A stretch of DNA of 32,978 nucleotides from a virus: IMG/VR virus record IMGVR_UViG_3300010885_017831, positions 1-32,978 of that record; one strand, given 5' to 3'. Under the pieces are notes generated by a model that did not search any database, was not told where the DNA came from, and saw only the letters and a program-made list of their open reading frames with translations. Every line of letters begins with the position of its first letter. Position 1 is the stretch's first letter. The position numbers and the translations under genes were made by a program. This document shows positions 2,860-30,812 of the stretch, piece after piece.

Positions 2860-2881
2860 ATCGCTCTCTTTTAATATTCAA

Positions 2882-2889
2882 TATTTATT
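2882..2889 (-). promoter_or_regulatory. Late promoter-like octamer AATAAATA
   Basis: AATAAATA on the minus strand matches the T4 late -10 element TATAAATA at 7 of 8 positions. It lies 22 bases before the fibre start at 2859, in the 32-base gap after the preceding gene. The same octamer occurs before gp6 and before the gp48/gp54-type gene. Promoter activity is inferred. Confidence 0.6.
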
Positions 2890-2891
2890 GC

Positions 2892-4538: not shown

Positions 4539-6694
4539 TATAGAACCCCAGTAAAGATAATGTAATTGATAGTTTCATATGGATTCATAATGCTAATTGG
4601 TTGTCCTGTTGTGGTCGATATTACGCTACCACTATTAGGCAAGCCTGATCCGGTACTAGATGTAGGCAAGCCTAATCCTGCAATTGCATTTGGATCCGAT
4701 CCTGCATTTGGTATGCCAGCGGCATAATATTGAGCACTGGCGCTACTAAGATTATGTTTGTGGTCTGGTATGTTTGATACAGACAGCGTCACTTGTTGTA
4801 TGCCAGAGCCTGATCCAACTAGATCTGCTGTAACATCTGTTACCCTATCAGCTGAGCCTCCGCCGGCATCTACTAAAGTTCCTGAACCGTCTTTATATGG
4901 AACTGTTAAATTGTTATCCATATTATCACGACCTAGCGGGAATCGGCCGCGCAAATCAGGAAGTGCAAAAGAACTTTGTCCATTTAACAACGAAGCCGCT
5001 TTGTAAGTATATCCTATTACTGAAAACAATGCAGGATAAACGGAAATCCTAACTTCACTACCGTCACATAATAAGTAACCTGTTGGAACAATAGTTCCTG
5101 CAAATGGCATAATAACACCTACTGGAACTGTAGCTACATGATTAAGCAATGTTTGCTTAGTCATGCTCAATAACCCAACACTTGGTCTAAATACTAAAAA
5201 TTGATCTGTTAGATTAGAATCAGTTGCAGAGGTCTTATTTGTAATTAAATTTGAACTAATCGTAGTTGAAAATACCGCAGTGCCATTTGCACTCTGGCCG
5301 TCAAAACTAACAATATTACTAAGTACGTCTCCAATCATACTAAATGCAGTTGGACTAGATAACTTGGCAGCTGATCCGTTTACACTACCTGCCAAAGCTC
5401 CAGTAAACGAACCATTAAAGGTTCCTACAAAGTTCTGAGCATATATGTTTCTAAATTTTCTTGTAGCACTACCAATATCGTACAAGCCAGCAGCAGAATC
5501 TGTGCCAGGTAATAATACTGCACCGGCACTTGGATTACCACTTATTAAATTATTAACTAAAATATTTCCATAAGCAGAAACTGTTCCGCCAAAATTAGAA
5601 TTCAAAGCAACAGTTAGGCCGCCGTTTGTCTTAATACTTCCAGTTACACTACTCCAAGCGGTAGTTGGAGTATATACGGAGTTTGTTGTTCCTGTAACAT
5701 CTATGCCTGTACTTATTGTTATTAAACCAGCAACATCTAAAGCAGAAACAGGAGCTGTATTGTTTGGACCAATGCCTACCTTACCAGTTGCATCTAAATA
5801 AATGACTGATTGTGTTATTCCGCCATTGTTTAAACTAAAATTAATACTATTACCACTATTTTTAGAATAAAATACTGTTGAGTTTCCGCTAGTTCCTATA
5901 TTGAAACTTAAATCGCTACCAACGCTGATGCCGCCGTTTGATCGAACACTTAGAGGAAAATTAGTAACGCTAGTTGCATCAGATCTTAAAAAATTTGCAG
6001 ATGAAATTACATTTGTTCCAATTAATAATCCGTCAGCAGAAGTTGCTGTTCCGTGAAATCTTGATAAATTTCCAGAGGTTGCATTATCAATTTGACTTAA
6101 ATTCACACCTTGATTTATTGTTGTAAATCCCTGAATTGATAGCTTAGGTGTAAATGTATCTTTACTAATAATTGAAATAGGATAACTTGTTCCATTTGTT
6201 GCTTTAGATGCATACAAGCTAATTACGCTATGTGTGATATTATCAGTGTCTATAATACTTTCAACAATAGGACCTGTTAAAGATCCTTGTGCAAATTGCG
6301 GTCCTACTAGTAACCAGTTAGATCCTGAAAACAAATATAACTGACTGTTAGTAGTATCTACCCACAAATCGCCTTGCAAACTATTAGCAACCGCTGGAGC
6401 ATTTGATGCTTTTTTCAACGATCCAGAATTATTCCATACTGTGCCATCATATACTTTAAGTGTACTTACACTTGTATCATACCACAGTTGCCCCTGTACA
6501 GGATTATTGGGTGCTGTACTATTTGCAAAATTTTCTAATAAATGTAAAAAATCATTAGCAATGATAGAACCGTATCCTGCATAGTTACGTCCTACAAACG
6601 TTAAGCTAGTTTGATTATTAAGACTCTGATCTTGAACTGTTAATGGCTGTTTTGCAGGATTATTTGATTCTGTAAAGGTAACTTGATAAGTCAT
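4538..6694 (-). CDS. Short-tail-fibre-like protein with tail-collar domain (718 residues)
   Basis: The N-terminal module (GRNYAGYG at 35-42, LLENFANSTAPNNP, GQLWYDT, then GDLWVDT) matches the two downstream fibres. The central part is Gly/Ser/Asn-rich with fibre-type elements (APVSALDVAG, ATRKFRNIYAQNFVG). From about residue 528 there is a phage tail-collar domain: IMPFAGTIVPTGYLLCDGSE, then SSFALPDLRGRFPLGRDNMD at about 573-592. Near the end IPDHKHN places H645 and H647 in an His-x-His pair. In T4 gp12, a trimeric short fibre, a similar pair binds zinc. The C-terminus (MNPYETINYIIFTGVL) is typical of collar-domain proteins. It sits three bases after the 202-residue gene and overlaps the next fibre by one base. 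By analogy to gp12 it could be the irreversible-binding fibre, but the host receptor is not visible. Confidence 0.82.
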   Translation of the reverse strand: MTYQVTFTESNNPAKQPLTVQDQSLNNQTSLTFVGRNYAGYGSIIANDFLHLLENFANSTAPNNPVQGQLWYDTSVSTLKVYDGTVWNNSGSLKKASNAPAVANSLQGDLWVDTTNSQLYLFSGSNWLLVGPQFAQGSLTGPIVESIIDTDNITHSVISLYASKATNGTSYPISIISKDTFTPKLSIQGFTTINQGVNLSQIDNATSGNLSRFHGTATSADGLLIGTNVISSANFLRSDATSVTNFPLSVRSNGGISVGSDLSFNIGTSGNSTVFYSKNSGNSINFSLNNGGITQSVIYLDATGKVGIGPNNTAPVSALDVAGLITISTGIDVTGTTNSVYTPTTAWSSVTGSIKTNGGLTVALNSNFGGTVSAYGNILVNNLISGNPSAGAVLLPGTDSAAGLYDIGSATRKFRNIYAQNFVGTFNGSFTGALAGSVNGSAAKLSSPTAFSMIGDVLSNIVSFDGQSANGTAVFSTTISSNLITNKTSATDSNLTDQFLVFRPSVGLLSMTKQTLLNHVATVPVGVIMPFAGTIVPTGYLLCDGSEVRISVYPALFSVIGYTYKAASLLNGQSSFALPDLRGRFPLGRDNMDNNLTVPYKDGSGTLVDAGGGSADRVTDVTADLVGSGSGIQQVTLSVSNIPDHKHNLSSASAQYYAAGIPNAGSDPNAIAGLGLPTSSTGSGLPNSGSVISTTTGQPISIMNPYETINYIIFTGVL

Positions 6695-6697
6695 TGA

Positions 6698-7306
6698 TTA
6701 CACTCCTACTAAGCCAGTTAGACTTTGTATACGCACTGTATAATCTATCTGAATTAAACGATTTAAACTTTTTAACACAGGATGGAATATTACATGTGTT
6801 AGTAACAATGTTGATCCGTCTGATTTATAACTTTGTAAACCAAGTTCATCAAATACAAAAGTGCTTTCGGTATTAGTCGTAGTATCAAATGCACTTTGGC
6901 CGCCTGGTTCGCCGTAATCTAACAAGCAAGTAACAAAAATGTCAGTATAATTGGTGCCAGTTACGTGTCGACTTTCAATAAAATTTCGTGTTGGATCAGT
7001 ATTTGTACTTGAGTTGTTATTAACAACTTTAGCATAAGTTTCGTTATACAGACTAGCATTTGTACCACTACTATTTGGTGTTAGATAAGTGATAATACCC
7101 GTTGGATCTATTGCTGTTCCACCATTACCAAATGCCATTTTATAGATAAAACCCTGGCCACTGTTAGCCATACTTTCTGCCAAGGCAATACTAATATTCT
7201 CGTAGTGAATTGCGTTGCGTTTATCAATATAAACTTCAGCGGAAACTGGGTCATAAATCTTAATATGACCCTCTATATGAATTCCAGTTGCGTCTTTAGT
7301 CTGCAT
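6698..7306 (-). CDS. Unidentified baseplate-region structural protein (202 residues)
   Basis: I do not recognise this protein with certainty. It has no signal peptide, no membrane segment and no Cys cluster. It is rich in Thr, Asn and Ser and mainly beta-like. The C-terminal third (STFVFDELGLQSY, then LTHVIFHPVLKSLNRLIQIDY) is the best-marked part and ends in an alternating, beta-strand-like pattern. The gene follows a TAAATA-core promoter-like element and an AAGAGAGA ribosome-binding site, and is the first gene of a probable late unit that continues into the fibres. Lying between the gp7-position protein and the first fibre, it occupies the place of T4 gp8. T4 gp8 is 334 residues and I see no convincing motif match. 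A fibre-to-baseplate connector is an equally good guess. Confidence 0.7.
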   Translation of the reverse strand: MQTKDATGIHIEGHIKIYDPVSAEVYIDKRNAIHYENISIALAESMANSGQGFIYKMAFGNGGTAIDPTGIITYLTPNSSGTNASLYNETYAKVVNNNSSTNTDPTRNFIESRHVTGTNYTDIFVTCLLDYGEPGGQSAFDTTTNTESTFVFDELGLQSYKSDGSTLLLTHVIFHPVLKSLNRLIQIDYTVRIQSLTGLVGV

Positions 7307-7361: not shown

Positions 7362-10300
7362 TTAATTCTTGTAATCAGCATACCAAATACCAGGGCTTGC
7401 TTTTAAAAATTCTGCAATTTTGCTGTTATCGTTCTGTATATTAACAGCATTATCCCAAGCAATACCAGTTCGCTTAACAACTGTAACCTGAGTTCCTGAA
7501 TTTAATAAATTAGTCAATCTTATCTGATTAGTTGTTCCAGTTACTGCAAAATCTGCATCAAGCTGGACATCTCCCTCAGGACTGTAAGGACTATTATTCA
7601 CATTGTGTACTTTATACGGGCTCTTTTTCAAACGTATATTTCCAATAAAGAATTTCCAGTTAGCGGAGTCTGTACTAAAAACTGTTGAGCTAACATGGTT
7701 TGCTATACATCTGTAAGTATAAGATCCTACATTTACAATAGTTCCAATAGTATAATTTGTAGATGATGTCCAAGTGGTTCCGTAATCATACCCTCCAACA
7801 AATACTTCAATGTCATCAGATTGTCCAAAATTTGTAGGAATTGTACTTGAGTATCCAGCACCGTAAGTCCATGTAGTAATAGATTTTGTTGGAGTAAACG
7901 TTAAATCTATAAAATTAGTACCGTCTGATAATATTTGTTCAGTAATCGATGTTTCAATATACGGAACAGTTTCTGACGGGCCAATATCTTGAACAAATGT
8001 GCCTTCTTTATTCGATGAATATGCGCCTGTACCTAATGTTCCTCTGCGCAGTCTTCCTAATACATTACCTTGTTTAGAAAAATACTCAATTCTTTCGCCT
8101 CGTATTTCAATTACACCTGGACGATTTAAAGTAGGATTAGGTATATCAAAGTTAGTTGCATCGGTAAGTTCAATAGTTAGATCATTTAATTTTAAATCTC
8201 GAGCAAGAGTTGTTCTCTTGCTTAAACTTAGTCGTTTAAAATGAACACGGTTTAACATATCTTTAAATTGCATATATGCAATTCCAGATGTTAATACATT
8301 ACTACTAAAAGTAATCAAAGTTATCTTATCTGTAGAACTAGGTATAGTTGCCAGTTGAATTGTTTCTTTATCATCATTTAATTTGTAATCAATACTAGGA
8401 ACTAATAGTGTTGTATTTCGTATGACCCAGATATAATTGTCATCAACTACAGACCTATCTAATTTTATAGTACCGTTAGAGATAGAAGTGTACTCATAAA
8501 ACTCAATTGTTCCAGGAGTTAATTCAATATTAGATGTAACACTAACTGAAGTTCTTTCAATGTCTAATATATTATGATTATATGAACTAATAACTTCAAC
8601 AATTGTTGATAAAGGATACACAGTACCAAAGGTAATAGTGTTTAATATAGGGTCGTACGAATAACCGCTTGAAGACGCTACACTAACTACTATTTCTTTT
8701 CCAGAATATAGTGTGTATACAGATCGATTAATTTTAATTGTGATGCCACTTAAATCTATTGTGTAATCGGATCCTAAATTTAATTTTATGCCATCAGCAA
8801 AAACATTTATTTGAGTAACAGCTACCGAATAAGGTAATATCTTTTTAGAATCAAGTGTGTAATTTAATCGATTGCTGCCAATTTTAAAATAACTATTATT
8901 TGGTGCTGGAAGAATATTTTGTCCAGCTCTTACAATCATATTTGACTCATTTGGCAGTTTGATACCAACTGGAAATACCATTGGGTAAGTTGTACTTACA
9001 CCGTCTATTGCAATCTTTTCTGTTTTAGTTACTGCAAATGTTTGTTGATTACCATTAACAATAGTAAAATTAATTAAAGAATTTGCAGGAGGAACTATTC
9101 CAAATCGCAGACCAACAGCATTAGCAAATTCATAAGTGCTATCAGTTTTAAATAATTCAGGAGTATATATTTCTCCGTTAATATAAACTAATGTTGTCAG
9201 TGAATCTTGCCAAGGAGCTTTTGTTATAAACTCGTTAGTTGTACCGTCTCCAACAAAATAGTCAAGGTCTAAAATATTTGAACCGTTAAATCCAATGTTA
9301 AAGACTGTGACTAATTGTCCAGTGGTAGGTGCTACCTTTAAACTAACTATTTTATTTTTATAATCAAAAGTATAGTCGTCATCAAGAGATTTGATGTTAT
9401 TTCCAACTTTTACAATAATTGCTTTGTTACTGTTAGGATGTATAGGTAAAGTAAAATCTTTTGTTGACCCGTTGCCGATAAAATTACTAATTTTGATATT
9501 AGAAGAACCAGATTGTGGTCTATCAAATACTTTAATAGCAACCGAATCTACTACTTGACCCGGTACAACTTCTTCAGGAGCAGGACTGCTGGTTGGAGTT
9601 ACAAACCCGTCGCCGTCTACTAAAATATCATCTGCTGCCAATCCTGTAGCAGTACTATATGCAAGATCTCCACCCTTAATAGAAGTGTCATAATCATTTT
9701 CTGAAGGAGCGACAGATCCATCACTGGTGCTTTTACGTAAAATAAACACATCGCCTGTTGCAACTACAAATGTATTTGGAATTGTAAACGTAGCGGAAGT
9801 GCCGTTTGCAATCGGTGTAGTTAGAATTGCAGTTTCATTAGTCTGAGTAAGTGTTCCATAGTTTGCATCGTCTAATCTAGTTGGATTAATTTTTCCGGTG
9901 ACATTAAGAACAACTCCAGCCGTTAGTGGGCTAGTTAGCGATAATGTTCCGTTAGCATTAATAATTACGTCATTTGGTTCTACAAGAGTTCGTGTAGTCG
10001 TGATACTTGTGTTATTTGGTATATTTGCATATAATACCTTATCAATACTAATAGTTGTGCTATTAATAATTCCAGTAATTATTGTATTGTATGTAAAGGT
10101 AGATACAGTTGCACATGCTAATACATCTCCAACGTATAAAGTTGAAGTATTATTAACTGTTAACTTAGTACTACCAGCATAATTGTATGAGAATATTAAT
10201 GTGCCAGATGGAGAACTATCCGGTGCCGCATTTAATATTACTGTAGTAGAATCAATGATTGCTGTCACTGTTCGAGTTTTTGGAAAACCATTTCCTTGCA

Positions 10301-13300
10301 CTGCCATGCCAATCACTATACCAGTAGTAGTTGAAACTTTTAATGTAGTATCATAACTGCCGCTTAACGATGTAACAGATATTCCAGAAGTAGTTACAGT
10401 AGTTACTGCTGTTGCAATCGGTGCATTTGCAAGAATATTATAAGTAAATTCTGTTGATATTCCGTTTAACGTGTAAGTATCAACGTTATTTTTTATATGA
10501 TAAATGTTAATTGCTGTTCCGGCTGTAGGAATATACGGCATTGTAAACGAATGTGTATTTGAGGCTACTGTTACATAGAAATCATCAAATGTTGGATCAA
10601 AATTATCCCACTTATCTTGGAAAAACGGAGATGAGTCCCAACCAGATAACACATTAAAACCAAGTCCATTAACAACAACGCCGCCGTAGTCAATACCAGT
10701 CATTAATTGACTCAAGTCTTTTCCTAACTGGCCAATTCCAGGAGTATAATGATATTGTATTCTGTCTGGAGCATTTAGTACAGTTTCATCAATATTGTAC
10801 TTGATGACAACTGTTGAATTGTTAGTAGGTGCGTAGCCTACAGCAAATGTTATTTGTCCGTAATACGAAGTAAATCCTTTAATTTTTGATGTTATAGTTT
10901 TTAAGGTATAATTTTCTCTTAATACAGGAATACTATTCACTGTAACACTAGACTTTCCAACACGTATATCTGGTGCCCATTTTAAATTAAATTGTAAAGT
11001 ATTACCGTTACCAGTGTATGTTTCAACTTGCTCAATCTGTGTTATATAATTTGTTTGCGATGTTCTGTCAAATTTAATTCCAATATGAGTAGAACGTACA
11101 ACACTATTTCCAATTATTGCAACAGCCTTTGCTTGTCTTCCAGTAATTAAATATCCACCATCAATAGTAATAGTAGGAGCTTGCAAATATCCTGTTCCAG
11201 TAGTTAACAATATAATCCTATTAACTTTTCCATTAGTAAAAAATGCTCTAGCAGTAGCACCCGATCCTACAGGGCTAGCAATAGTCACTGTTGGTTCTGT
11301 GATGTACCCTGAACCGCCATCAACAATAACTATTTCAGTAATACTAAATCCGTTATTGTCTAACCAAAATTTCCAAGGATAATTTTGTATAGCCGCATTA
11401 TCTGATTGTATGACACCATTGTTTACTGTAATATTAATTAATTCAATATTTCCAGTAGTATTATTGTAAATTGGTTGTAAATCAAAATCAGTTATAGGTA
11501 ATTTTGCAGTATCTAACCCATCATAGTTACTGACATATTCTCTAATTTTAGTTTTATAAGGTTTTACTTCGTTTACATAATCTTCAAAATTAGATAAATT
11601 ATCAACCGGATAATTTACTGGCTGATCGAGCATACCAATATTGTGCTGAGCTTTTACAAAACTAGTTTTAAAGATCCAGTCAACATATAATTGTTCGCTA
11701 AATGCATATCGAATACTTTCAAAAAACAAATCTAAATAATTTTGTTTTAATTCGTTAATAAAAATTTTATTTTTAATTACATTTAAAATAGTTTTTAATT
11801 CAACACTAGCAACAACGTCAAATGCATCTCCATCGTATGTGTTAGAATCATATCCTACGTTAGTACCAGTAAATTGATATAATGCTGAACTTAGTTGGAT
11901 TGTACCGTTTTCTATTCCAACAACTTGATAAGATGCAGTCCAGTCAACACTAGTTGAATTACTATATTTTTCTAAAAGTAACCAGCCACCTGTGTTAGCA
12001 ACTCGTATTTTAACAATATCTCCAATTACAGTGGTAATTGAATTTAAATCAACAAACGTATTAACTGCATAGTCGGGGCTTACAAACTGATTAAAACCAG
12101 TTGCATACCAATCAACATAATTCCAATACTTTCTCACATCATAACTTTGTGTTAGTGAGCGAGACCAGACTTTATAGATATTATCGTAAGAATATACACT
12201 CCAGCGATTAGATGCTTGAGAATCGCTGTGTACTAAAACAGAATAGTTTCTGACAGATAGTCTAGTTGTGTGGCCGTAACCTTCGCCTTGTGATAGTATA
12301 CTTACTCCTGTTATTTGACCAAGAGTGTTTATTGTTGTTCTAATTTCAGCACCTACTCCTGTGCCGGAAATTTTTACAAACGGAGCCACTAGATAACCTT
12401 TACCGCTTATAGTAATAAAAACATCTACTATTTTGCCGTCAAGAATAACTGGTGTTAGGCTTGGTGGAATAAAACCAGTTATATTTGCATATCCTAATTC
12501 TAAATCAGTATCTAATACAGTATCATATAATCCGTAAACAATATTTGGTTCTTTATCAAAAGAATCTAAATCAGAAATATCGCTATTTTCTGCAATTTGT
12601 TCTGCAATGAATAATCTGTTTGCTGTTTCAACAAACTGTTTAAGTGCTTCAAATCTGTTTACAAACATACCTTGTCTTGGTCTATTTTCAATACCATATT
12701 TTAATTTATTAGGCAAAGACATATCAGGAACTAGCAATCCTTTACTGTCGGTACCACTTAAACTGTCAAACCACTTTTGTTCTATAGTACTTGGAATACT
12801 AGTTGTAGGATCATTGCTAATCAATTTATACTGATTGTGAATATTTTGATCTGTGATTCCAGTAGTCCAATACTCAACAGATAATACAACATCTCTATCA
12901 TTTAAATAATTTTTTACATTTGTAAGACTAAATGAATTTAATCCAGTTAATGCAAGATAACTGTAACCCTGACCTCGAGGATTAGAAATTAAACTAGAAA
13001 CATTGGATGCTGAGATTTTTCTTCCTATAATATTAGGAGTAATTTTTTTATTTTTTACCCAGAAATAATATTTGTTTTTAAATGTCTTACTAATTTTATC
13101 ATAAATTTGTTTTGTAGCATATACAGCGTCACCGTATAGAGATTGACCGCTGATATCTAAAGTGATACCAGCTGGTGTGTCTGCTTGCACATCCCATTTG
13201 CTTGGCAACAAATTAGTCTCAACCCATTCGTAAATATCAATTGTTGAGCCTGTTGCTAATGTATTCCATGTGCTATTTCTATAGACTAAATTAGCATCGT

Positions 13301-16300
13301 AACTGTTAATAAACTTAGAAGTTCGTAAATCCCACCATAGTGTACCTACTTGTATTTCTCCCCATGCACTTGACTCGTCTACATTGACTTGAGATGTTCC
13401 TGTTGAATAAATTGCAGGGTCATAGAATGTTTTATATTTTATTTCTTCTTCAGCAGGACCTGCAATTTTACCTTGTAAAGGATCAATTGTATCAAGATAC
13501 GTGATTAACTTTCCAGTAACTTTATTGTATAAGAAAGCTGATTTAATTTTTGTAATATCTGGAACGGCTACTTGAGTTGAATTAACACTCCAACTGTATT
13601 TGTCAGATAATTTTCCATAATTATATACAGTACCAGAATTATATACTGTGTTAGTATCAGTAAACGGTGCTCCTACAAAAATCTGATTAGAACCTACAGC
13701 AAATCCAACACCGTAACCGTCATTTTGTATTGTGGTAGTTGGTAATGTTTCACTCCACACCCATTTAGAATCATACTTGTCATATACATCAACTCTTCCG
13801 CTGTCTACATTTCGTATTCTAAAAGAAGTAGAATTTTTATCAAACGTTGTTTCGCTAGCATCGAATGAAGTATTCAAATATATATCGCCTGCTTGACTGT
13901 AAATTACTAAAGTTTTGTCATCGTTCATGAACGATAACTTTGATCCAAATCTACCAGAAGACTCTGGAAGGTGCGGAATAATATCCTGATACTTAGTATA
14001 CTGACCGCTAGATTGTAGCGAGTAAACATCGACCTCGCCAGTTTGATTAATTGTAGATACTGTGGAGAAATCATCGCTTACTGCAAAATAATTTCCAGAG
14101 GATGTAATACTAATGCTTTGGCCAAAGGTAGAACTAGTACCTGTAATAGTTTGCGTTAATGACGGCAAAGTGCTAGTATTGTTATAGACATAGACTTTTC
14201 CTGTTGAATTTCCACCTGAGGCACTTACCAATAGTTTGCTAAAATCATCACTAATTGCTATTGAACTTGAATAGTTGTGTCCAGCTCCTGCACCGGTTAG
14301 TACAAATTGATTATCGTAAGTCCAGTCTGTTGTTACAAAGTTTAAAATACCAGTTGGGGTACTTGTTGGATTTCCGCTTAATAATAAAGTTGTTGCACTA
14401 ATAACTGATACAACATACTGAGATCCAGAAAACCCAGTACCTTGCACAAACATACCTTCTCTAATTCCAGAAGTAGATGTCACTACTATTGTAGAATTAG
14501 AACTACCAACTGGGTTGTATGCAGAACTTGTTTCAATTGTGTTTACATAATTTAATCTATAAACTTTTCCTTGATTATTGGTGTAACCCGTTGCTCCTAC
14601 TAGTAAAGTATTGTTGCCAAATACTAAAGAAGAGCCAAACCGTTCTCCAGCGGCTTCTTGAGGACTAATAATAGATGCTACAAAATTATAATTGTTATTA
14701 GGATCCTTTTTATATAACGAGACTGCACCTTGCTCAGATAAAGATGAATTTGTTCCTCCAAGATTTACTGGAATATATGATATTTTTTTCCAAGATGAAA
14801 TTCCAGAACCCGATACTGTATTAACAGCAGTAATTGATACAGAATCAACAGTTATAGTTAAATCATGAAGTACATCCTGACCGCCAATATTTGATCCTAA
14901 TATCTTAATTTTGTCGCCAGCTAAGTATCCAGCACCGCCAGTTTGTCTTGAAATGGTATAACCGGTTAATGTTGGAGCCACATTAAATGTTGCACCATTA
15001 CCTAGTATCACTTCTGCGGGTAACGACAAATAATTTTGTGAAGGAGTACTTCCACTTGCAGATACTGTAGTAATAGATTGTTCAAAAGCACCAGTAACTG
15101 TAATTATAATGTCGTTTACTGTATCTACTCCGCCTACCGCAGTTCCAAGTATTTTTAATTTGTTACCTACTTTATATCCAGCACCTCCAGATATTACTTT
15201 AACTGAGTATGTTGAACCAGTTACAACAATTGTAAATCGGGCGCCTTGGCCAACAGTCAAGGTTGTTCCTGATACAGCATTGTAAACAGCTTGTAGTGCA
15301 TTATCAACTTGATAATACTTTGAATTACTATAAACAATACTTTCTGCTGAGTATGCAATACCTTGGACATAATTTCCAATAAATTTTGTTGCGGCGTAAC
15401 TAGCGTTAGGAGATCCAACTGCCATCCATATTTTATCATTTGAAAATGCAATAACTGTCGAGTGTACACTTGTAAGATTTAAATTTATGCTTAATACTGG
15501 AATTGAAAACCCTGTACCTGTTCCGCCAACATCTGCTGGATTGACTGATAGACTATTTGCAGGTTGATATCCTAAACCAGGTTGATTTAAAATAACGTTA
15601 ACAATTTTTCCATTCTTAACAGTAATATCAGCAGTAGCACCTGTACCACTTCCACCTGTTAACAGAACATCACTATATGTTGATGTACTTGTAGTCGGAG
15701 TATATCCTGAACCTGCAGTATTTACAATGGTGGCAGCAAAATTTGAACCTATACCACCAATATTAATCGACGCGGCTGATAACACTTCGCCCGATACATA
15801 TTGATTGCTTACAGATACTAAAGTTACACTAAACACCGATCCGTTCTTAACAGTAATATTAGCAACTGCTCCTGACCCCGTTCCGCCTGTTAATGGAACA
15901 GAAGCATACAACTCTGTTCCAATTGTAGGTGAATAACCCGATCCTGTACTGGTTAGTACTAATGTAGATTCTATTTTTATTACATCTAATGCGGCAATAA
16001 CACCATACTGAAAACCTGTACTAATATTAGCAGATATCTGCGGGCTTTGAATTAATTGTTGTTTGGCCCATGCCGGTATAACTCCAGGTTTGATATACGT
16101 TGTTATTCGGCCGTCAGTTGTACTTAATGCCGCAATATCACCTTGTTTCGTAACTGCTAGAGTTCTACCATAATTTGATCTTACCTTAGGATACTGATCA
16201 GTTAATGCTGTTTGACTATAAATTGGATTGTATTTCCAAGAAGACCATTTGTTAGATCCATTGTTGTCAACCCATATTAACTCATCTAATTTTAATTTAG

Positions 16301-19300
16301 GTGGTAGCGTTGTATCCAATAGATCCAATGAAGGCAATCTTTGAGTTGTTAATGCTGAAATCTTTATAGAATTTAACTCAGTAAACGGATTTTGCCAGCC
16401 TGTAATAGTTGTTGTTACAACAAAAGAATTTAATTCTACAGATTCTATTTTATAAAATCCGTTAATTTTAGTTGTTTGTGTAATTCCAATATATGAACCT
16501 GCTTTAAAATTTACAAAATCATTAAGCTGAATAGTTAGTTTTTTACTAGGAGCATCATATGTTACACTGTTAACAATAAAATTAATATCAGAAATTCTAT
16601 AGACATTCCAAGAATTCTTTTCAAACGAGCACCAAACATAATCACCATTAGAAAAGTTGGATGGACTGTAAGTTACAATATCTTCTATTGACTTTAAACT
16701 AAGTGCCACATCTCCTGAATTCACATATCCTGCACTTCTTAACAACGGCTTGTAAGTTAACGTATCAGGCCATGGCGTCGAATCGTAGTTGTCAGGTTTT
16801 AAATAAATATCTCCAGGAGATACTTGTATTAAAAATGAATTAAGATCTTTATCTTTTTCATTTACTAATACATATTGCTGAGGATTACTTCTGATACTTG
16901 TTTCATCTAGAATAAATTCAATTTGTTGAAAGGCAGTACTAGCACCGTATTGTCCTACGCGAATTGCCCACTCTTCATAAAACTTTAAACTTTCTTTATT
17001 ATCAGAGCTTAATACATCAAATAATTTATTAAGAACATTTTGTGTTCCCTTTTCTCTAATCATTCCTTGATAAAATTTAAATTCACTAACATCATCTTGG
17101 ATAATATTACTCAGGTATTCTCTCTTCTGATAACCAATTATGTGTTGGCCTACTTTCTGATGTTGTAAATCAAAACTGTCAGAATCTAAACTATAAAAAT
17201 CTTCAAACTGTGTTGCAGAATTAGTCCAGTTAGGCAAAATCTTTTGCTCTGGTTTCTTTGACAATTGTGTCCAATCAGTTCTATTAAAATCTGTTGTGCC
17301 GCCTAATTTAGAATTTGCACTATAATAAAAACTTTGGTAGACTACAATGTCTCCAAGATTATAATCTTGCCATTGTTGCCAACTTTGAATATTAGCTTGG
17401 TCGAAAATAAATCCTGGAACATCTAAGCTACCATTCCAGTTATTAGTAACATAACCAGAAACTTTAATTCTTTCTTGTCTGTATCCGCTAGCTGGATTGT
17501 AAATAACATCATTAAAAATAGTAGTATTATTAATAATAACAACGTGTTCGTATTGTACTAGATAAAAACTTGCACAAAAAATGCCGTCTGCGGTCTTAGG
17601 ACTATATGAAATTAAATTATCTGATCTGTAAGAATTTAAATCAGCTGATGGTAATGTTGTTCCGTCAACTTTAAACATTTCGTACGAGTTAAAGCGATTA
17701 TCAATATCTTCTACTACTGATAAATCAGTAGTAAACGAAATTTCTCCAGCGGCTGGGCTTAGACTAATAACACTACTTCCATAATTATTTAAACTTTCAA
17801 GTTTAACATAATCATCAAAATCAAAAATTGGCAGAGTTGGAATATTTCTTGCGGCGCTATAATAATCGCCATTGTATCTTACTATTGTTCCGTAACTATA
17901 TTCTTTGCCTGGTACCCACTCGGACCATTTGTCTTGTCCAGAGCTCCAATTTTGTGTAGACCAGAACATGAATTCTTTAGCACTAGTTTCCCAATTAGAA
18001 ACTAATCCTAAATTTGTATTAAACTCATTAAATGTAAATCCTTGATCTTTTAACCACTCACCGTAACCTGTTAAAAAGTCAACAACTTCTTGTACTGACC
18101 CCAATACCTTGCCATACGGTACTATTAGTACATCAGTTCTATCCCATAATTTTCGAAGTATTGCATCTGCTCCGCCATTGATAGGCAATGCGGTTAATTT
18201 AGTAAATTGATCTGGATTAAAAGTAGGCCCAGTTTTAGTTAATAATTTTGATTGATAAAATGCTCCGTTATATTTTACAATAGAACCAACTGCATATTGT
18301 TGGCCTGGAGTCCAAACTGTAAATCCTTCTGAAATTCCACCTATATTAATTTTACTACCTGATTGCAAATATGTGTATGTATTAAAATACGGAGTTGTTT
18401 GACTATATCCGTTGATTTGATATCCTGTTTGCAATTTAGTGATAATCACACCACTATATGACAACTTTTTAATAGGATTAGATTTATTTAAAACAACATC
18501 ATAATCTTCTGCTGGGATAAAAACGTTACCTGTGCTAGAAGGAGTTTTACTATCTAATAATAATTTAAATTGATCTTTATTAGTAAACGCACCTACTCTA
18601 TAACTAAGTTGTACATTTAGTGTAGTCAATGAAGTTTTGTATAAATCGTATGCTTTTAAATTGTTGTTAAAAACATAACTTAATATAGACTGGACAAGAT
18701 AATTAACTAAACCAGAAGTTTGTACACGGGTAGTTGTTTCATAAGTACTTGGTAAGGCAATATCCTGTGGACGAATTCGTAGTTGAGTATCAGTATAAAC
18801 AAGTTGTCCTGCAACATTTCGAGATGTGCGAGATCGGTCTAACAGTATTCCAAATGTTTTTGACGGAGCCAATAGCATCAGTGTTGACATAATGCTAAAA
18901 GGATAATGACTACTACGTCTCCATGCTGATTCAACCGGGCCAACATCTCCAAATACATAATCAGCATAAGAAGAATTAGTAGGAACACCACGAGCAAGAC
19001 CTGACTGCATTGGGCTAACTATATTTCCAAATTCATCTACTGGTATATGATTAATTAAAAAAGGTTTAGCATATTTTGACGATTTAATTGCAGGTCTGCC
19101 AGGCTCGCGAATTAAACCATCAGAAACGTCTTGCCACATAACTTTGTTATCACTTGTATACGGTGCTGGACCGTATAGAGATTGCCACCAAGATGGTTCT
19201 AAACTAAATCCTAACATTTCCCACGGGCAAATATTTGGTCTGTCAGTGTCTAACAACCATCGATATACACCACGCCAATATCCTGGTAATCCAGTATCAT

Positions 19301-22300
19301 TAGGAGCAGAAAATCTAGTATAGTTGTAGTCTTTAGTAAGAGGCTTTGCATAATCGTTTCCAACTAATTTTGCCCACTTATAAAAATTAGAAGAAAGAAC
19401 ATTATTAAATTCTTCTCTACTATAAGCATTGGTTCTATTATAACTAGGAATTACATCATTTACATCGTAGATAGTTACATCGTATTCAACTTTAATATTA
19501 TTAAAAATTCTTTTTTCTAATTCTAAAATTATATTGTCTCTATAGTCGCCGTATGATAAAATTAAACTTCCATCGTGGCCTTGTATCATCAACCTTGGAG
19601 ATGCAAATGTCGTATCTAAGAAAATCTTAGGTTCGTATTTTGGCCATATACCTAACTTACTTGGAGTCTCAGGTATAAAAGATCCGTCAGTATTTTCGTA
19701 TTCGTAAGTAGTAATAATGTCACCGTTTGCAACAACTACTTGCGGTGTTAGTAAAATAAATCCCTGACTATCAAACGTATAATCTTTTTCATAAATTAAT
19801 TGTACGCCATTTAAATAAACTCCTACAGCTTTGTTTGATAACACGGATAAACTAAATGCAGTAGTTAATGGATATGTTAATATTCTGTAATCTTCAACCA
19901 CAAACTCTGTTTTTAAACTTGCTCCGTACGGAACCATATCACTAAAATAATAAGGACTAGTGTTTGGTTTGTTTCTATTAAGTTTTTCTAAAATTAAATC
20001 TACAAGAACAACCGGATCTCCGTCAATACCTATATTGCTAGCAGTATCAATAAATGCTCGTTTAAACGAATTGTAATCATCTCTTGCTTGGTCAACTGCT
20101 TTAATTACGTTATTATCTTCTGAAGTAATATGGTATAGGCTTAAACTTAGCGGGCCACTATGTTGTACAAATTTTGTTCCGTACGGTGTTACATCTCCCA
20201 AATCTCGCAGGTTACCAGCACCAGGAAATATTCCCGTAAAAGTAGTTAAATTGTCTACGATAGAATTTACATGATCTAAAACTTCACCTAAAGTAAAATT
20301 TCCAATCTCGTCATTTAACGGATTATTTTGCAAATTAACTGGTAGTTCATAAAAACCGTTTGAGTTAACTGACTGTGTAGTATATGCTTTGATAGTTAAA
20401 ATATCGTCTGTAGTTATATCCGAGATTAATACAACTTTTTTATAAACAGGTGTATCAACAACAGACCATAGTGTTGGTGATAAACGTTTTCCATTTACAT
20501 AAACTTTAATTACTAGATCGCTAAGACTATCAATATTATCAAAAATATCAATTTCAAAATTATTTGTTTTATTAGAATTTTTATATATTCTAACGGCGGC
20601 TTGCACATTACTAGCAGTACTAGTCTTCCAACCGTTGACAAAAACATATTCACCAGAATAACTATGTGTTAGCAAATAGCCAACATCTATTTTTTTAGAA
20701 ATAACAGATAAATCTTGTTTATATTCAAAGCTATCTGATACTAAATCAAAGTTAAAAACAATGTCACCAATATTACTTACATTTTTATAAGATAACGGAA
20801 ATCCTAAAACGTTGTCTGAAATTCCTGTGCCTTTCTTATAAGAGAATAACGATGTTCCTGTAAAAGTCGATCCGTAATAAACTGATGTATTTCCAAAACT
20901 TATACCGTCTTTATCGTAAACATCAAATTGAGGATTTTGATTAGTATTGGTTTTTTGCTGAGATTTTTTCCAAGTTGAACCGTTAAACCAATAAGATAAA
21001 CTTTGATTCTTAATACCATTTTTAACTAGCACTGTTTGATGTGCAATTGGTTCTGAAATTTCTACTAGATGTATTTGTTTAGTACTGTCAGCAAGATGCT
21101 GTAATTGTAAAAAATCAACACGATAAATTTTATTGTTTACTAAGGGATCAGCATCTGCGGTAAACAATATTGTTTGACCTTGAGATAGTGCAACACCGTC
21201 TACACTATATCCCGCTGACCCTTCAATTGTTGAAAAGATATCAGTGGTAAATGTATCAATTAGATTAACATCAGGACCTGCAATTGTTCCAAAATTAAAT
21301 AATTTTAAATCTGCTTGAAATTCAATAACAGGCCTAGTGGCACGAGCTATCTGATCGATATCTGCAACAGTTTTATTGTACGATGCTGTTAATGAAATAA
21401 CATCTTTGTGGAACCATCTATTATAACGAGACCACGGATTTCTATCTCTGCTTGCTCTATTGATTACAACATAATCTGATACACTGGCATAACCAGTAGC
21501 GTCACTGAACGGACCGTTATCAAACGGAGTTGCATCAAATTTAATTGCTTCGGATACGGTATATGGTCCTATAATTTCTAATATACTTTCAGGAATTAAT
21601 TTTATAGCAGAACCTACGCCCTCGACATAAAACTGTCCTGTTGCATATTGCTCAGGTTCTACTCGGCCGCCAAAACGAACTTTCATTCCGTTGCTTAACG
21701 GAATTGTTTCATTTACAAAGTAAGTTTTTTTACCTAGAACATCGTTTTCAACGTTGATATAAGTATTCTCATCAATATCTTGAATTTGGAATACGCCGCC
21801 AACATTTATGTCAGCTTCACTTTGATAGTACAGAATACTTGGAGAATCTAATGGAACTTTAAAAGTTATGGTTCCAATTTCAACAGCGTGTTTATCAATG
21901 CCGTTATTAATATATCTGTTATATTTTCCCACACTACGTTCTAACTTAATTGAAAACGGATGTGCAGGGCTATTGATTTCAAACTTGTATGTTTGTCCTC
22001 TGTATAGAGTTATTAACGGATCTCGTGTTAATCCATCAGGAGTAAACACATATTGATAGTCTGCTCCAATTTCTTGTAGTTCCACAGTATATGTACTAGT
22101 AACTTCTTGTTTTTGACCAAAGATTTCTATCGAGTCTGGGCCGTACGGTAACCAGTAGTAATTTTGAAAGTTAACAAATTTATCCCAATCAATATGTGGA
22201 TCCCAAGAATAAAATTCTTGACTGTTAATACGTGCATGGTTAGTTGTGTTGGCTCCAAACACATTTAATTGATTAATATAATCTTGGTAATCTTTAAAAA

Positions 22301-22577
22301 ATATAATATTATCAAGCGAGTCTTTAATTGTTATGCCCGGTTCTAATTGATAATCTTGTCTAGATTTTTCTTGTGAGGCAACAAATATATCCGATGCAAC
22401 AGATGCTTTAGAATTTGACCGACCAATATAGCCGTTGATCTTATCTACTGTACCTGGCTGAAATAACTGGTCAATCGTGGCTTGTAAAAACTTTTTATTT
22501 GCTGGAGTTTGATAAAACCCAGGTAATAAATTTGCACTAAGACCTGTTTTTCCGACTGGGTTGGTTTTTTTAACCAT
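7362..22577 (-). CDS. Giant baseplate protein in the gp7 position (5071 residues)
   Basis: One uninterrupted frame of 15.2 kb. It follows gp6 with an eight-base overlap, as gene 7 follows gene 6 in T4, but T4 gp7 has only 1032 residues. The N-terminus (TPANKKFLQATIDQLFQPGT, NGYIGR) and FQNYYWLPYGP at 137-147 are phage-specific scaffold motifs. Residues 183-268 are cupredoxin-like (HPFSIKL, then LYYQS and GGVFQI). About 1499-1514 holds VDFLTGYGEWLKDQGF. Five short W/Y-G-IV-Y modules resemble CBM5/12 chitin-binding folds (near 1418, 1549, 1727, 2399 and 4930). Residues 2130-2993 hold seven FG-GAP-like blades interrupted by insertions. GxGY repeats occur near 2203-2362, 2426-2589, 3376-3442 and 3742-3808. 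VNEVKPYKTKIREYVSNYDG follows the third GxGY block. About 4768-4855 holds FKDMLNRVHFKRLSL and GERIEYFSKQGN. No signal peptide or enzyme motif was seen. The wedge role is inferred from position. The many beta-modules suggest fibre-like or surface-exposed arms. Confidence 0.85.
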   Translation of the reverse strand: MVKKTNPVGKTGLSANLLPGFYQTPANKKFLQATIDQLFQPGTVDKINGYIGRSNSKASVASDIFVASQEKSRQDYQLEPGITIKDSLDNIIFFKDYQDYINQLNVFGANTTNHARINSQEFYSWDPHIDWDKFVNFQNYYWLPYGPDSIEIFGQKQEVTSTYTVELQEIGADYQYVFTPDGLTRDPLITLYRGQTYKFEINSPAHPFSIKLERSVGKYNRYINNGIDKHAVEIGTITFKVPLDSPSILYYQSEADINVGGVFQIQDIDENTYINVENDVLGKKTYFVNETIPLSNGMKVRFGGRVEPEQYATGQFYVEGVGSAIKLIPESILEIIGPYTVSEAIKFDATPFDNGPFSDATGYASVSDYVVINRASRDRNPWSRYNRWFHKDVISLTASYNKTVADIDQIARATRPVIEFQADLKLFNFGTIAGPDVNLIDTFTTDIFSTIEGSAGYSVDGVALSQGQTILFTADADPLVNNKIYRVDFLQLQHLADSTKQIHLVEISEPIAHQTVLVKNGIKNQSLSYWFNGSTWKKSQQKTNTNQNPQFDVYDKDGISFGNTSVYYGSTFTGTSLFSYKKGTGISDNVLGFPLSYKNVSNIGDIVFNFDLVSDSFEYKQDLSVISKKIDVGYLLTHSYSGEYVFVNGWKTSTASNVQAAVRIYKNSNKTNNFEIDIFDNIDSLSDLVIKVYVNGKRLSPTLWSVVDTPVYKKVVLISDITTDDILTIKAYTTQSVNSNGFYELPVNLQNNPLNDEIGNFTLGEVLDHVNSIVDNLTTFTGIFPGAGNLRDLGDVTPYGTKFVQHSGPLSLSLYHITSEDNNVIKAVDQARDDYNSFKRAFIDTASNIGIDGDPVVLVDLILEKLNRNKPNTSPYYFSDMVPYGASLKTEFVVEDYRILTYPLTTAFSLSVLSNKAVGVYLNGVQLIYEKDYTFDSQGFILLTPQVVVANGDIITTYEYENTDGSFIPETPSKLGIWPKYEPKIFLDTTFASPRLMIQGHDGSLILSYGDYRDNIILELEKRIFNNIKVEYDVTIYDVNDVIPSYNRTNAYSREEFNNVLSSNFYKWAKLVGNDYAKPLTKDYNYTRFSAPNDTGLPGYWRGVYRWLLDTDRPNICPWEMLGFSLEPSWWQSLYGPAPYTSDNKVMWQDVSDGLIREPGRPAIKSSKYAKPFLINHIPVDEFGNIVSPMQSGLARGVPTNSSYADYVFGDVGPVESAWRRSSHYPFSIMSTLMLLAPSKTFGILLDRSRTSRNVAGQLVYTDTQLRIRPQDIALPSTYETTTRVQTSGLVNYLVQSILSYVFNNNLKAYDLYKTSLTTLNVQLSYRVGAFTNKDQFKLLLDSKTPSSTGNVFIPAEDYDVVLNKSNPIKKLSYSGVIITKLQTGYQINGYSQTTPYFNTYTYLQSGSKINIGGISEGFTVWTPGQQYAVGSIVKYNGAFYQSKLLTKTGPTFNPDQFTKLTALPINGGADAILRKLWDRTDVLIVPYGKVLGSVQEVVDFLTGYGEWLKDQGFTFNEFNTNLGLVSNWETSAKEFMFWSTQNWSSGQDKWSEWVPGKEYSYGTIVRYNGDYYSAARNIPTLPIFDFDDYVKLESLNNYGSSVISLSPAAGEISFTTDLSVVEDIDNRFNSYEMFKVDGTTLPSADLNSYRSDNLISYSPKTADGIFCASFYLVQYEHVVIINNTTIFNDVIYNPASGYRQERIKVSGYVTNNWNGSLDVPGFIFDQANIQSWQQWQDYNLGDIVVYQSFYYSANSKLGGTTDFNRTDWTQLSKKPEQKILPNWTNSATQFEDFYSLDSDSFDLQHQKVGQHIIGYQKREYLSNIIQDDVSEFKFYQGMIREKGTQNVLNKLFDVLSSDNKESLKFYEEWAIRVGQYGASTAFQQIEFILDETSIRSNPQQYVLVNEKDKDLNSFLIQVSPGDIYLKPDNYDSTPWPDTLTYKPLLRSAGYVNSGDVALSLKSIEDIVTYSPSNFSNGDYVWCSFEKNSWNVYRISDINFIVNSVTYDAPSKKLTIQLNDFVNFKAGSYIGITQTTKINGFYKIESVELNSFVVTTTITGWQNPFTELNSIKISALTTQRLPSLDLLDTTLPPKLKLDELIWVDNNGSNKWSSWKYNPIYSQTALTDQYPKVRSNYGRTLAVTKQGDIAALSTTDGRITTYIKPGVIPAWAKQQLIQSPQISANISTGFQYGVIAALDVIKIESTLVLTSTGSGYSPTIGTELYASVPLTGGTGSGAVANITVKNGSVFSVTLVSVSNQYVSGEVLSAASINIGGIGSNFAATIVNTAGSGYTPTTSTSTYSDVLLTGGSGTGATADITVKNGKIVNVILNQPGLGYQPANSLSVNPADVGGTGTGFSIPVLSINLNLTSVHSTVIAFSNDKIWMAVGSPNASYAATKFIGNYVQGIAYSAESIVYSNSKYYQVDNALQAVYNAVSGTTLTVGQGARFTIVVTGSTYSVKVISGGAGYKVGNKLKILGTAVGGVDTVNDIIITVTGAFEQSITTVSASGSTPSQNYLSLPAEVILGNGATFNVAPTLTGYTISRQTGGAGYLAGDKIKILGSNIGGQDVLHDLTITVDSVSITAVNTVSGSGISSWKKISYIPVNLGGTNSSLSEQGAVSLYKKDPNNNYNFVASIISPQEAAGERFGSSLVFGNNTLLVGATGYTNNQGKVYRLNYVNTIETSSAYNPVGSSNSTIVVTSTSGIREGMFVQGTGFSGSQYVVSVISATTLLLSGNPTSTPTGILNFVTTDWTYDNQFVLTGAGAGHNYSSSIAISDDFSKLLVSASGGNSTGKVYVYNNTSTLPSLTQTITGTSSTFGQSISITSSGNYFAVSDDFSTVSTINQTGEVDVYSLQSSGQYTKYQDIIPHLPESSGRFGSKLSFMNDDKTLVIYSQAGDIYLNTSFDASETTFDKNSTSFRIRNVDSGRVDVYDKYDSKWVWSETLPTTTIQNDGYGVGFAVGSNQIFVGAPFTDTNTVYNSGTVYNYGKLSDKYSWSVNSTQVAVPDITKIKSAFLYNKVTGKLITYLDTIDPLQGKIAGPAEEEIKYKTFYDPAIYSTGTSQVNVDESSAWGEIQVGTLWWDLRTSKFINSYDANLVYRNSTWNTLATGSTIDIYEWVETNLLPSKWDVQADTPAGITLDISGQSLYGDAVYATKQIYDKISKTFKNKYYFWVKNKKITPNIIGRKISASNVSSLISNPRGQGYSYLALTGLNSFSLTNVKNYLNDRDVVLSVEYWTTGITDQNIHNQYKLISNDPTTSIPSTIEQKWFDSLSGTDSKGLLVPDMSLPNKLKYGIENRPRQGMFVNRFEALKQFVETANRLFIAEQIAENSDISDLDSFDKEPNIVYGLYDTVLDTDLELGYANITGFIPPSLTPVILDGKIVDVFITISGKGYLVAPFVKISGTGVGAEIRTTINTLGQITGVSILSQGEGYGHTTRLSVRNYSVLVHSDSQASNRWSVYSYDNIYKVWSRSLTQSYDVRKYWNYVDWYATGFNQFVSPDYAVNTFVDLNSITTVIGDIVKIRVANTGGWLLLEKYSNSTSVDWTASYQVVGIENGTIQLSSALYQFTGTNVGYDSNTYDGDAFDVVASVELKTILNVIKNKIFINELKQNYLDLFFESIRYAFSEQLYVDWIFKTSFVKAQHNIGMLDQPVNYPVDNLSNFEDYVNEVKPYKTKIREYVSNYDGLDTAKLPITDFDLQPIYNNTTGNIELINITVNNGVIQSDNAAIQNYPWKFWLDNNGFSITEIVIVDGGSGYITEPTVTIASPVGSGATARAFFTNGKVNRIILLTTGTGYLQAPTITIDGGYLITGRQAKAVAIIGNSVVRSTHIGIKFDRTSQTNYITQIEQVETYTGNGNTLQFNLKWAPDIRVGKSSVTVNSIPVLRENYTLKTITSKIKGFTSYYGQITFAVGYAPTNNSTVVIKYNIDETVLNAPDRIQYHYTPGIGQLGKDLSQLMTGIDYGGVVVNGLGFNVLSGWDSSPFFQDKWDNFDPTFDDFYVTVASNTHSFTMPYIPTAGTAINIYHIKNNVDTYTLNGISTEFTYNILANAPIATAVTTVTTSGISVTSLSGSYDTTLKVSTTTGIVIGMAVQGNGFPKTRTVTAIIDSTTVILNAAPDSSPSGTLIFSYNYAGSTKLTVNNTSTLYVGDVLACATVSTFTYNTIITGIINSTTISIDKVLYANIPNNTSITTTRTLVEPNDVIINANGTLSLTSPLTAGVVLNVTGKINPTRLDDANYGTLTQTNETAILTTPIANGTSATFTIPNTFVVATGDVFILRKSTSDGSVAPSENDYDTSIKGGDLAYSTATGLAADDILVDGDGFVTPTSSPAPEEVVPGQVVDSVAIKVFDRPQSGSSNIKISNFIGNGSTKDFTLPIHPNSNKAIIVKVGNNIKSLDDDYTFDYKNKIVSLKVAPTTGQLVTVFNIGFNGSNILDLDYFVGDGTTNEFITKAPWQDSLTTLVYINGEIYTPELFKTDSTYEFANAVGLRFGIVPPANSLINFTIVNGNQQTFAVTKTEKIAIDGVSTTYPMVFPVGIKLPNESNMIVRAGQNILPAPNNSYFKIGSNRLNYTLDSKKILPYSVAVTQINVFADGIKLNLGSDYTIDLSGITIKINRSVYTLYSGKEIVVSVASSSGYSYDPILNTITFGTVYPLSTIVEVISSYNHNILDIERTSVSVTSNIELTPGTIEFYEYTSISNGTIKLDRSVVDDNYIWVIRNTTLLVPSIDYKLNDDKETIQLATIPSSTDKITLITFSSNVLTSGIAYMQFKDMLNRVHFKRLSLSKRTTLARDLKLNDLTIELTDATNFDIPNPTLNRPGVIEIRGERIEYFSKQGNVLGRLRRGTLGTGAYSSNKEGTFVQDIGPSETVPYIETSITEQILSDGTNFIDLTFTPTKSITTWTYGAGYSSTIPTNFGQSDDIEVFVGGYDYGTTWTSSTNYTIGTIVNVGSYTYRCIANHVSSTVFSTDSANWKFFIGNIRLKKSPYKVHNVNNSPYSPEGDVQLDADFAVTGTTNQIRLTNLLNSGTQVTVVKRTGIAWDNAVNIQNDNSKIAEFLKASPGIWYADYKN
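14880..15270 (-). repeat. Tandem pair of GGAGY repeats inside the giant gene
   Basis: Two copies share GARFTIVV / GATFNVAP, GGAGYKVGNKLKILG / GGAGYLAGDKIKILG, and VGGVDTVNDIIITV / IGGQDVLHDLTITV, offset by 249 bases (83 codons). They sit between the second and third propeller-like blades. Confidence 0.7.
15495..15965 (-). repeat. Tandem pair of about 77-residue GSGY repeats inside the giant gene
   Basis: Two successive copies share TGSGYSPT / AGSGYTPT, LTGGTGSGA / LTGGSGTGA, and ITVKNGSVFSV / ITVKNGKIVNV. The nucleotide sequences also match, for example around 15610-15665 against 15841-15896, at an offset of 231 bases. This is a duplication that is still visible at DNA level. Confidence 0.75.
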
Positions 22578-26111: not shown

Positions 26112-26546
26112 TCATGCAGTCAGTAATCCATTAGCTTGATCAAACTTCAACTGCAAGCTCTGTTGGATATTGTAAGGGAGATACTTTAATGTACATTGTA
26201 TTTGTAAACCTGTATCGTACGGCGTTACTAACACATTTCCTGCTTGGATTCGCGGATCGTGGTTAAGAATTTCATTAACGTTTTGTACTATAAGACTTTT
26301 AATTTGCTCAGTTAATGGTTCAAATAACAAGTCCCAGATAATGGTTCCAAAACGAGGTTGCATTAAACGCTCACCTTGTCTTATATGAAAGTGATTAAGC
26401 AAATCTTGTTTAATTAATTCAAAATCATAAAGAACAAAATTTTCTGAAGTTGTATTAACTGTACTAAAACCTCTATATTTCTGAGATGCGTTTTCAGTAG
26501 CTAGCGGTTTTGCAGGTATGGTTGTTTTATTATAAATTGTTGTCAT
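26112..26546 (-). CDS. 25: Baseplate wedge subunit gp25
   Basis: At 144 residues this has the usual size for gp25, a small baseplate protein with a lysozyme-like fold that joins the wedge to the inner baseplate and sheath. Homologues occur in contractile injection systems as TssE. The core motif RQGERLMQPRFGTIIWDLLF is at residues 56-75, followed by EPLTEQIKSLIVQNVNEIL, NHDPRI at 95-100 and a beta-rich C-terminus. The N-terminal about 30 residues are low in structure. Its ATG shares one base with the gp5 stop (TAATG), so it is probably read by coupled translation. It is the last gene of the tube/hub unit; the late-promoter-like element for gp6 lies just downstream. Confidence 0.93.
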   Translation of the reverse strand: MTTIYNKTTIPAKPLATENASQKYRGFSTVNTTSENFVLYDFELIKQDLLNHFHIRQGERLMQPRFGTIIWDLLFEPLTEQIKSLIVQNVNEILNHDPRIQAGNVLVTPYDTGLQIQCTLKYLPYNIQQSLQLKFDQANGLLTA

Positions 26547-30511: not shown

Positions 30512-30811
30512 TTATAATCCTAATACTGATTTTAAACCGCTACTCTTTGGAATATAAATTTTTGTTCCTGGTACAAAATCTAAAATAGGATCTCGTAGTA
30601 TATCTAAATTACGCTGAATAAAAACCCACCATAGTCCAGGCTCGCCATATAAGTCGTAGGCAAGTAAATCTGGACGGTACATATATTGCGATTGAATTGA
30701 ATACAAAAAGTCGTCTGGCTCTGAACTGACGGGTCGAATAGCCAGTGTATCTAAATAGTTGTTACGTGTTTGCGTTGTAAAGTAAGGACTTGTATTCGAA
30801 TATGTTGCCAT
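30512..30811 (-). CDS. 53: Baseplate wedge subunit gp53-like (99 residues)
   Basis: The C-terminal half matches the gp53/LysM-like pattern: SQYMYRPDLLAYDLYGEPGL, then WWVFIQRNLDILRDPILDFV and PGTKIYIPKS. In T4, gp53 clamps wedges together and carries a LysM-type domain. The start at 30811 (MATYSN) is one base after the stop of the upstream gene (TAA C ATG). An ATG at 30856 in the same frame would add MLLAATLIILLDGSN but lies inside the upstream gene and lacks homology support. At 99 residues this is about half of T4 gp53 (196), so the N-terminal part is reduced. Neighbours are tube-cap and hub genes, which fits a baseplate role. Confidence 0.75.
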   Translation of the reverse strand: MATYSNTSPYFTTQTRNNYLDTLAIRPVSSEPDDFLYSIQSQYMYRPDLLAYDLYGEPGLWWVFIQRNLDILRDPILDFVPGTKIYIPKSSGLKSVLGL

Positions 30812-30812
30812 G

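Follow-up and report, generated by a model that had tools for sequence, protein, structure and literature searches.

The window analysed here, a viral fragment of 33 kb (32,978 bases, with no N), carries a baseplate operon of the T4 superfamily on its minus strand, and a single very long gene in that operon occupies the place that gene 7 has in T4. We conclude that its product, here called the giant, is probably the baseplate wedge protein that fills the gp7 slot in a jumbo myophage of the T4 superfamily, with relatives in the RaK2, Atu_ph07 and PA5oct group. In T4, gp7 joins two chains of gp6, and each of the six wedges is formed in this way; gp7 is regarded as a core component of constant size in T4-type baseplates. 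The protein found in this place in cyanophages and jumbo phages is 3–7 times larger, with optional modules inserted at particular sites. The features of the window are listed in Table 1.

A sequence-only reading of this DNA had described one frame of 5071 residues filling about 46% of the window, and had named a frameshift or an assembly error joining separate genes as what would refute it. The frame was found as described: an ORF of 15,216 bases and 5,071 codons runs from ATG to stop on the minus strand, as does the rest of the baseplate operon (no strand had been given earlier). Its ATG overlaps the gp6 stop codon by 8 nt with GGAG just upstream, and codon-position GC is coding-like over its entire length. 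A relative with 86% nucleotide and 90% protein identity (L004) is also exactly 5071 aa long, and comparison of the two gave a dN/dS of 0.07 overall and of 0.03–0.13 in each 300-codon block. All 48 complete relatives in IMG/VR, L004 included, are single ORFs of 4520–5693 aa, and 16 exceed 5071 aa. Because of the identical length of L004, the low dN/dS and the 48 single-frame relatives, a frameshift, an assembly artefact or a joining of genes is excluded, and the giant is one protein under selection throughout its length. On one 109-kb contig (L047, 10001–18085) the frame stops early, at 2694 aa; in another contig whose giant starts with an identical N-terminus (L048) it runs to its full 5041 aa, and the early stop is probably an assembly error.

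The operon reads gp53-gp5-gp25-gp6-giant in the downstream direction, with the gp6 gene immediately upstream of the giant gene, so that the assignment of the giant to the gp7 position by gene order was borne out. The window gp6 showed a weak Pfam match to Gp6-like_1st and an HHalign probability of 97.7% to cyanophage gp6. It is itself enlarged (660 aa in T4), and the gp6 of Vibrio phage 2.275.O (L088) has 1287 aa and a CBM5/12 domain in its annotation.

Table 1 Features of the window and of the giant protein (residue numbers are those of the giant)
Feature	Coordinates	Strand	Evidence or remark
Fibre-like gene, third of three	1..2859	-	Cut by window end
Fibre-like gene, second of three	2892..4538	-	
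Fibre-like gene with collar domain	4538..6694	-	
Small 202-aa gene, phrog_11259	6698..7306	-	Directly behind giant gene
Giant gp7-slot protein	7362..22577	-	5071 aa, 558.7 kDa, pI 5.0; phrog_10938 family
Tandem fibre-type modules, residues 4366–4506	9060..9482	-	Internal HMM
Variable insertion site, residues 4051–4250	9828..10427	-	27–738 aa in window-group relatives
Fibre-type module (GNG..F.L..P), residues 3854–3929	10791..11018	-	Internal HMM
Second GSGY-type beta-module, residues 3745–3810	11148..11345	-	HHalign 94%, E=1.2e-7 to cyanophage gp7
Conserved scaffold, residues 3451–3700	11478..12227	-	Ends in KPYKTKIREYV
GSGY-type beta-module, residues 3375–3445	12243..12455	-	Common to cyanophage gp7 and gp8
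Conserved scaffold, second half, residues 3001–3350	12528..13577	-	RaK2 equivalent also modelled
Optional FG-GAP beta-propeller region, residues 2130–2990	13608..16190	-	Pfam FG-GAP_2 E=1.2e-6
Conserved scaffold, residues 351–2150	16128..21527	-	
Candidate counterpart of T4/cyanophage gp7 FYxxKGxxxxxxxLF motif, residues 1812–1866	16980..17144	-	GYQKREYL...FYQGMIREKGTQNVLNKLF
CBM5/12 (chitinase chitin-binding) module, residues ~1420–1465	18183..18320	-	Profile and fold match
Optional block, residues 151–350	21528..22127	-	200 aa in window group
Conserved N-terminal block, residues 1–150	22128..22577	-	LLPxFYQTxxNKKFLxATIDQLFQPG...WDPHIDWD
gp6-like baseplate wedge protein, 1163 aa	22570..26061	-	phrog_10646 baseplate wedge E=7e-292
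gp25 baseplate wedge	26112..26546	-	Pfam GPW_gp25 E=4.8e-10
gp5-like hub/spike protein	26546..28255	-	phrog_13211 baseplate hub and tail lysozyme E=2.3e-50
Virion protein between gp53 and gp5	28252..30510	-	
gp53-like wedge protein	30512..30856	-	phrog_7145 E=5.2e-27; Pfam Phage_gp53 E=3.8e-4
Virion structural protein	30813..31814	-	Precedes gp53

Profile searches matched the giant to phrog_10938 with E=7e-256 (best stretch residues 678–1547) and, for its second half, with E=2.8e-78; an NCBIfam search returned no match. Members of this family include RaK2 gp465/ORF070w (3326 aa), GAP32_230 (annotated as 3341 aa), CBB_236 (3340 aa), 121Q gp582, PA5oct gp355 (3857 aa), Atu_ph07 gp180 (4449 aa) and Phosso gp294 (4555 aa), and the giants of Vibrio phage 2.275.O (3771 aa) and SCTP-2 (gp140, 3807 aa) belong to it as well. 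Those of RaK2, GAP32, CBB, 121Q, PA5oct, 2.275.O and SCTP-2 share the slot behind gp6 and a scaffold homologous over most of its length. They differ from the window giant in size, having 3.3–3.9 kaa against 5.1 kaa, and are labelled merely "virion structural protein" or "hypothetical protein". Among cultured relatives in the phage collection, coverage was highest for the giants of Atu_ph07, Phosso and AP-J-162 (gp58, 4455 aa), with 97% of the N-terminal query aligned and 28% identity; they are about 0.5 kaa shorter than the window giant and have divergent insertions. The gp25-gp6-giant order of the window recurs in these three phages and in RaK2, GAP32, CBB and PA5oct, and the giant of cultured relatives follows gp25-gp6 wherever these two are annotated (the SCTP-2 neighbours carry no annotation). 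Two scans of IMG/VR gave at least 401 and at least 481 matching stretches, and some of those in the second, a profile scan, were on contigs above 500 kb. The window giant is an ordinary member of an already recorded, poorly characterised family, and neither its size nor its family is new. Genes of about 200 aa were also seen directly after the giant gene in Phosso, SCTP-2 and 2.275.O, and nearby in PA5oct and Atu_ph07.

Family members are known from virions. Mass spectrometry of CBB virions detected 21 unique peptides of CBB_236 (PMC5259590), and PA5oct gp355 is annotated as a virion protein by ESI-MS/MS; by analogy with these two orthologues the window giant would be a virion protein too. In phAPEC6, gp245 (381.88 kDa) gave 17 virion peptides (PMC7247149), and its size and its place adjoining a wedge gene indicate that it probably belongs to phrog_10938. 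The 4455-aa protein of AP-J-162 is recorded as a "structural protein" and likewise adjoins a wedge gene (PMC11242549).

The sequence-only reading held that the giant takes the place of gp7, and genome content agreed with this. Each of eight complete or near-complete jumbo genomes contained one phrog_10938 gene, and a profile scan of the same eight detected no T4-type gp7 (phrog_964). Because the giant lies in the baseplate operon behind gp6, and T4-type gp7 is missing from 8/8 genomes, we infer that in the (gp6)2-gp7 wedge it supplies the third chain. As that reading also stated, it is nearly five times (~4.9 times) as long as T4 gp7, which has 1032 aa.

Direct comparisons with T4 gp7 gave little. 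The two proteins share the slot after gp6 and a presumed wedge role. None of Pfam Gp7_helical, Gp7_5th and Gp7_6th or phrog_964 was found in the giant, whereas T4 gp7 itself was matched as a control, and direct profile comparison of the two gave an HHalign probability below 1%. For a structure model of scaffold residues 351–1550 (pLDDT 83, pTM 0.74), Foldseek retrieved nothing from the PDB at E ≤ 0.001. The same was true when two models (pLDDT 72 and 83) were considered, and T4 gp7 was not among the matches listed; these fold comparisons used slices, and beads-on-a-string proteins compare poorly. Matches of the core model to UBA1 in the PDB were spurious (TM 0.06), and against BFVD the core model retrieved the family itself and otherwise only marginal matches of low probability. 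When slices and profiles of the giant were searched against PDB sequences, CBM5/12 matches or chance matches were all that came back; sequence and fold searches of the PDB together found no solved-structure relative of the scaffold.

Indirect, suggestive evidence for homology came from the cyanophages. Their gp7 or "baseplate wedge initiator" families (phrog_2885, phrog_4406 and phrog_701) include S-SSM7 gp7 (3007 aa), the S-CAM9 "wedge initiator" (3884 aa), the ACG-2014f gp7-slot protein (4225 aa), S-RIM8 gp7 (6395 aa) and the P-SSM3 protein "similar to gp7" (7312 aa), all encoded after gp25-gp6. According to a published comparison, cyano- and pelagimyophages lack T4 gp7, and another protein, VrlC, appears to stand in for it (PMC7029224). 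Since these reach 7312 aa, the window giant is neither a record in size nor a new kind of protein; phage proteins as long as 7,694 aa had been noted earlier (PMC7162821). Against T4 gp7, the cyanophage gp7 profile aligned at the FYxxKGxxxxxxxLF motif with 95% HHalign probability (90% for S-SSM7 alone). Residues 1812–1866 of the giant in turn matched cyanophage gp7 with E=0.0021 and a probability of 13%, and 0/200 shuffles reached the score; 25 slices were compared in all, of which others had higher scores owing to common beta-modules. When the RaK2-type family was represented by a broader profile, the match to cyanophage gp7 at this place was weaker. As a calibration, the gp6 of the window family reached only E=0.0022 against T4 gp6, although that homology is undisputed. 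The N-terminus of the giant was not significantly similar to that of cyanophage gp7 (9/200 shuffles), and outside the common parts the two scaffolds were not significantly alike. The giant and cyanophage gp7 have in common the slot, growth by module insertion, GSGY beta-modules (HHalign 94%) and a weak KGT motif, which lies near residue 200 in cyanophage gp7 (~700 in S-RIM8 and P-SSM3) and at 1835 in the giant. Matches to phrog_26741 were considered as gp7-motif homology and rejected, being accounted for by the common GSGY beta-module.

These sequence comparisons suggest that the scaffold may be homologous to T4 gp7, and the start of residues 1–150 may be the counterpart of the gp7 helical domain. 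The helices of the wedge core would then be split between an N-terminal part at residues ~12–47, which is not statistically supported, and the KGT motif at ~1835. Between this putative N-terminal landmark and the KGT motif the distance is ~80 residues in T4, 160 in S-SSM7 and 700 in S-RIM8 and P-SSM3, and this spacer may have been a repeated insertion site. Relative to S-SSM7, S-RIM8 and P-SSM3 (L192, L193) carry about 500 inserted residues after the N-terminal block and ahead of the KGT motif, a growth pattern like that in jumbo phages.

It is possible, though doubtful, that the scaffold has a fold absent from solved structures and is no homologue of gp7; an independent wedge protein would then have taken over from gp7 across a widespread set of jumbo phages. 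If gp7 was replaced in this way, sugar-binding and propeller modules would stand within the wedge, and part of host recognition would be built into the skeleton of the baseplate and not into the fibres. The family is abundant and known from virions; its interest lies in its unsolved structure and in whether gp7 was expanded or replaced.

Lengths in an alignment of 67 relatives separated scaffold from insertions. Within the window group the segments 1–150, 351–2150, 3001–3350 and 3451–3700 were of near-constant length, and length variation was restricted to a few sites. The 1–150 block was present in all homologues except two truncated by contig ends (L027 and L052). The optional block at 151–350 is 82–125 aa long in PA5oct, Phosso, Atu_ph07 and SCTP-2 and is reduced to 10–11 aa in RaK2, GAP32 and 2.275.O; part of it (residues 166–290) is found again in fibre and wedge-fibre-connector proteins of cyanophages (tblastn, E down to 4e-9). 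Some relatives are named YHYH proteins, and a Pfam search of residues 1–350 gave no match to the YHYH domain (PF14240). Region 2151–3000 spans 464–864 aa in the window group and only 57–59 aa in RaK2 and GAP32, which lack the FG-GAP propeller.

The beta-modules of propeller, sugar-binding and fibre type that had been proposed from the sequence were all recovered by profile searches and Foldseek. The FG-GAP_2 match scored 29 bits against a cut-off of 23, and inspection placed seven blade-like repeats at 2130, 2372, 2644, 2764, 2815, 2874 and 2953, with other modules nested between blades 1 and 2, 2 and 3, and 3 and 4. The CBM5/12 module at ~1420–1465 was matched by the family profile (hmmsearch) to Deacetylase DA1 (E=3.5e-5) and chitinase A1 1ed7 (E=1.1e-4) and by local Foldseek matches with probability 1.0; with the single sequence, Pfam gave 19.5 bits, under the cut-off of 26.2. 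CBM5/12 motifs occur at 1422, 1554, 1735, 2405 and 4938, of which the first was confirmed by profile and local fold. Fibre-type modules lie at 914–958, 3854–3929, 4366–4428 and 4441–4506, and the first of the tandem pair, beginning at 4366, weakly matched the N-terminal domain of the T7 tail fibre. A match to phrog_460 ("head closure Hc2") was rejected as head-closure homology and appears to reflect the GSGY beta-module; matches to Pfam CdAMP_rec, PstA-like and Toprim were at chance level.

These many fibre-type and sugar-binding-type modules, together with the failure to match the fold or profile of T4 gp7, would fit a virion protein unrelated to gp7, that is, a giant receptor-binding or fibre-like accessory encoded behind gp6, with an unrecognised other protein as the third wedge chain. 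We consider this unlikely. In all relatives the scaffold is kept over thousands of residues at near-constant lengths, unlike typical fast-evolving receptor-binding proteins; gp6 and the giant have stayed adjacent across very divergent phages; none of the eight genomes has another T4-type gp7; and the weak gp7 motif falls at a strongly conserved place.

The sequence-only reading had also suggested that parts of the baseplate edge or fibre system were fused into the chain, and this was not supported. Profiles of T4 gp8, gp9, gp10 and gp11 showed no similarity to the giant except in one mobile beta-module that is also present in cyanophage gp8. Fusion of gp7 with these neighbouring edge genes or with fibre genes would explain why gp8 (PF09215) was detected in T4 and 3/3 cyanophages and in 0/8 RaK2-type genomes (L002, L003, L083–L086, L088, L099), and why Pfam and PHROG profiles recognised none of gp8 to gp11 in the window. 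The non-detection of gp8 is weak evidence, however, because gp8 was also undetected in LG08, whose gp7 is small (881 aa). In addition, PA5oct carries a separate gene noted as gp10-like, and cyanophages with a gp7 of 3.0–7.3 kaa retain a separate gp8. Such a fusion is very improbable, and growth of the family by module insertion is far more likely.

The unusual size of the giant and its many separable modules, and the prohead protease encoded by RaK2 (PMC3622015), could point to a precursor polyprotein that is cut at maturation to give several proteins of the virion. The nesting of optional modules between propeller blades is, however, unsuited to their excision as separate chains, and the cyanophage counterparts are likewise single frames; we regard cleavage as highly unlikely. 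The published virion tables give coverage and peptide numbers, without the gel position of the giant.

For the preferred gp7-slot wedge protein, the following arrangement may be proposed. The scaffold (1–150, 351–2150, 3001–3350 and 3451–3700) would join two gp6 chains in each of the six wedges, giving six copies per virion, and would reach out to the baseplate rim. The grafted modules, namely the 151–350 block, the propeller at 2130–2990 with its nested modules and the variable C-terminal stretch, would face outward and could bind sugars of the host surface or other parts of the tail. On this arrangement the wedges of the baseplate could themselves be in contact with host glycans.

The three consecutive fibre-like genes behind the operon (window 1–6694) have a paralogous N-terminal region in common, the first and second sharing 34% identity over ~300 aa and the second and third 38% over ~210 aa. 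Judged from this shared region, the three products may compete for one attachment site.
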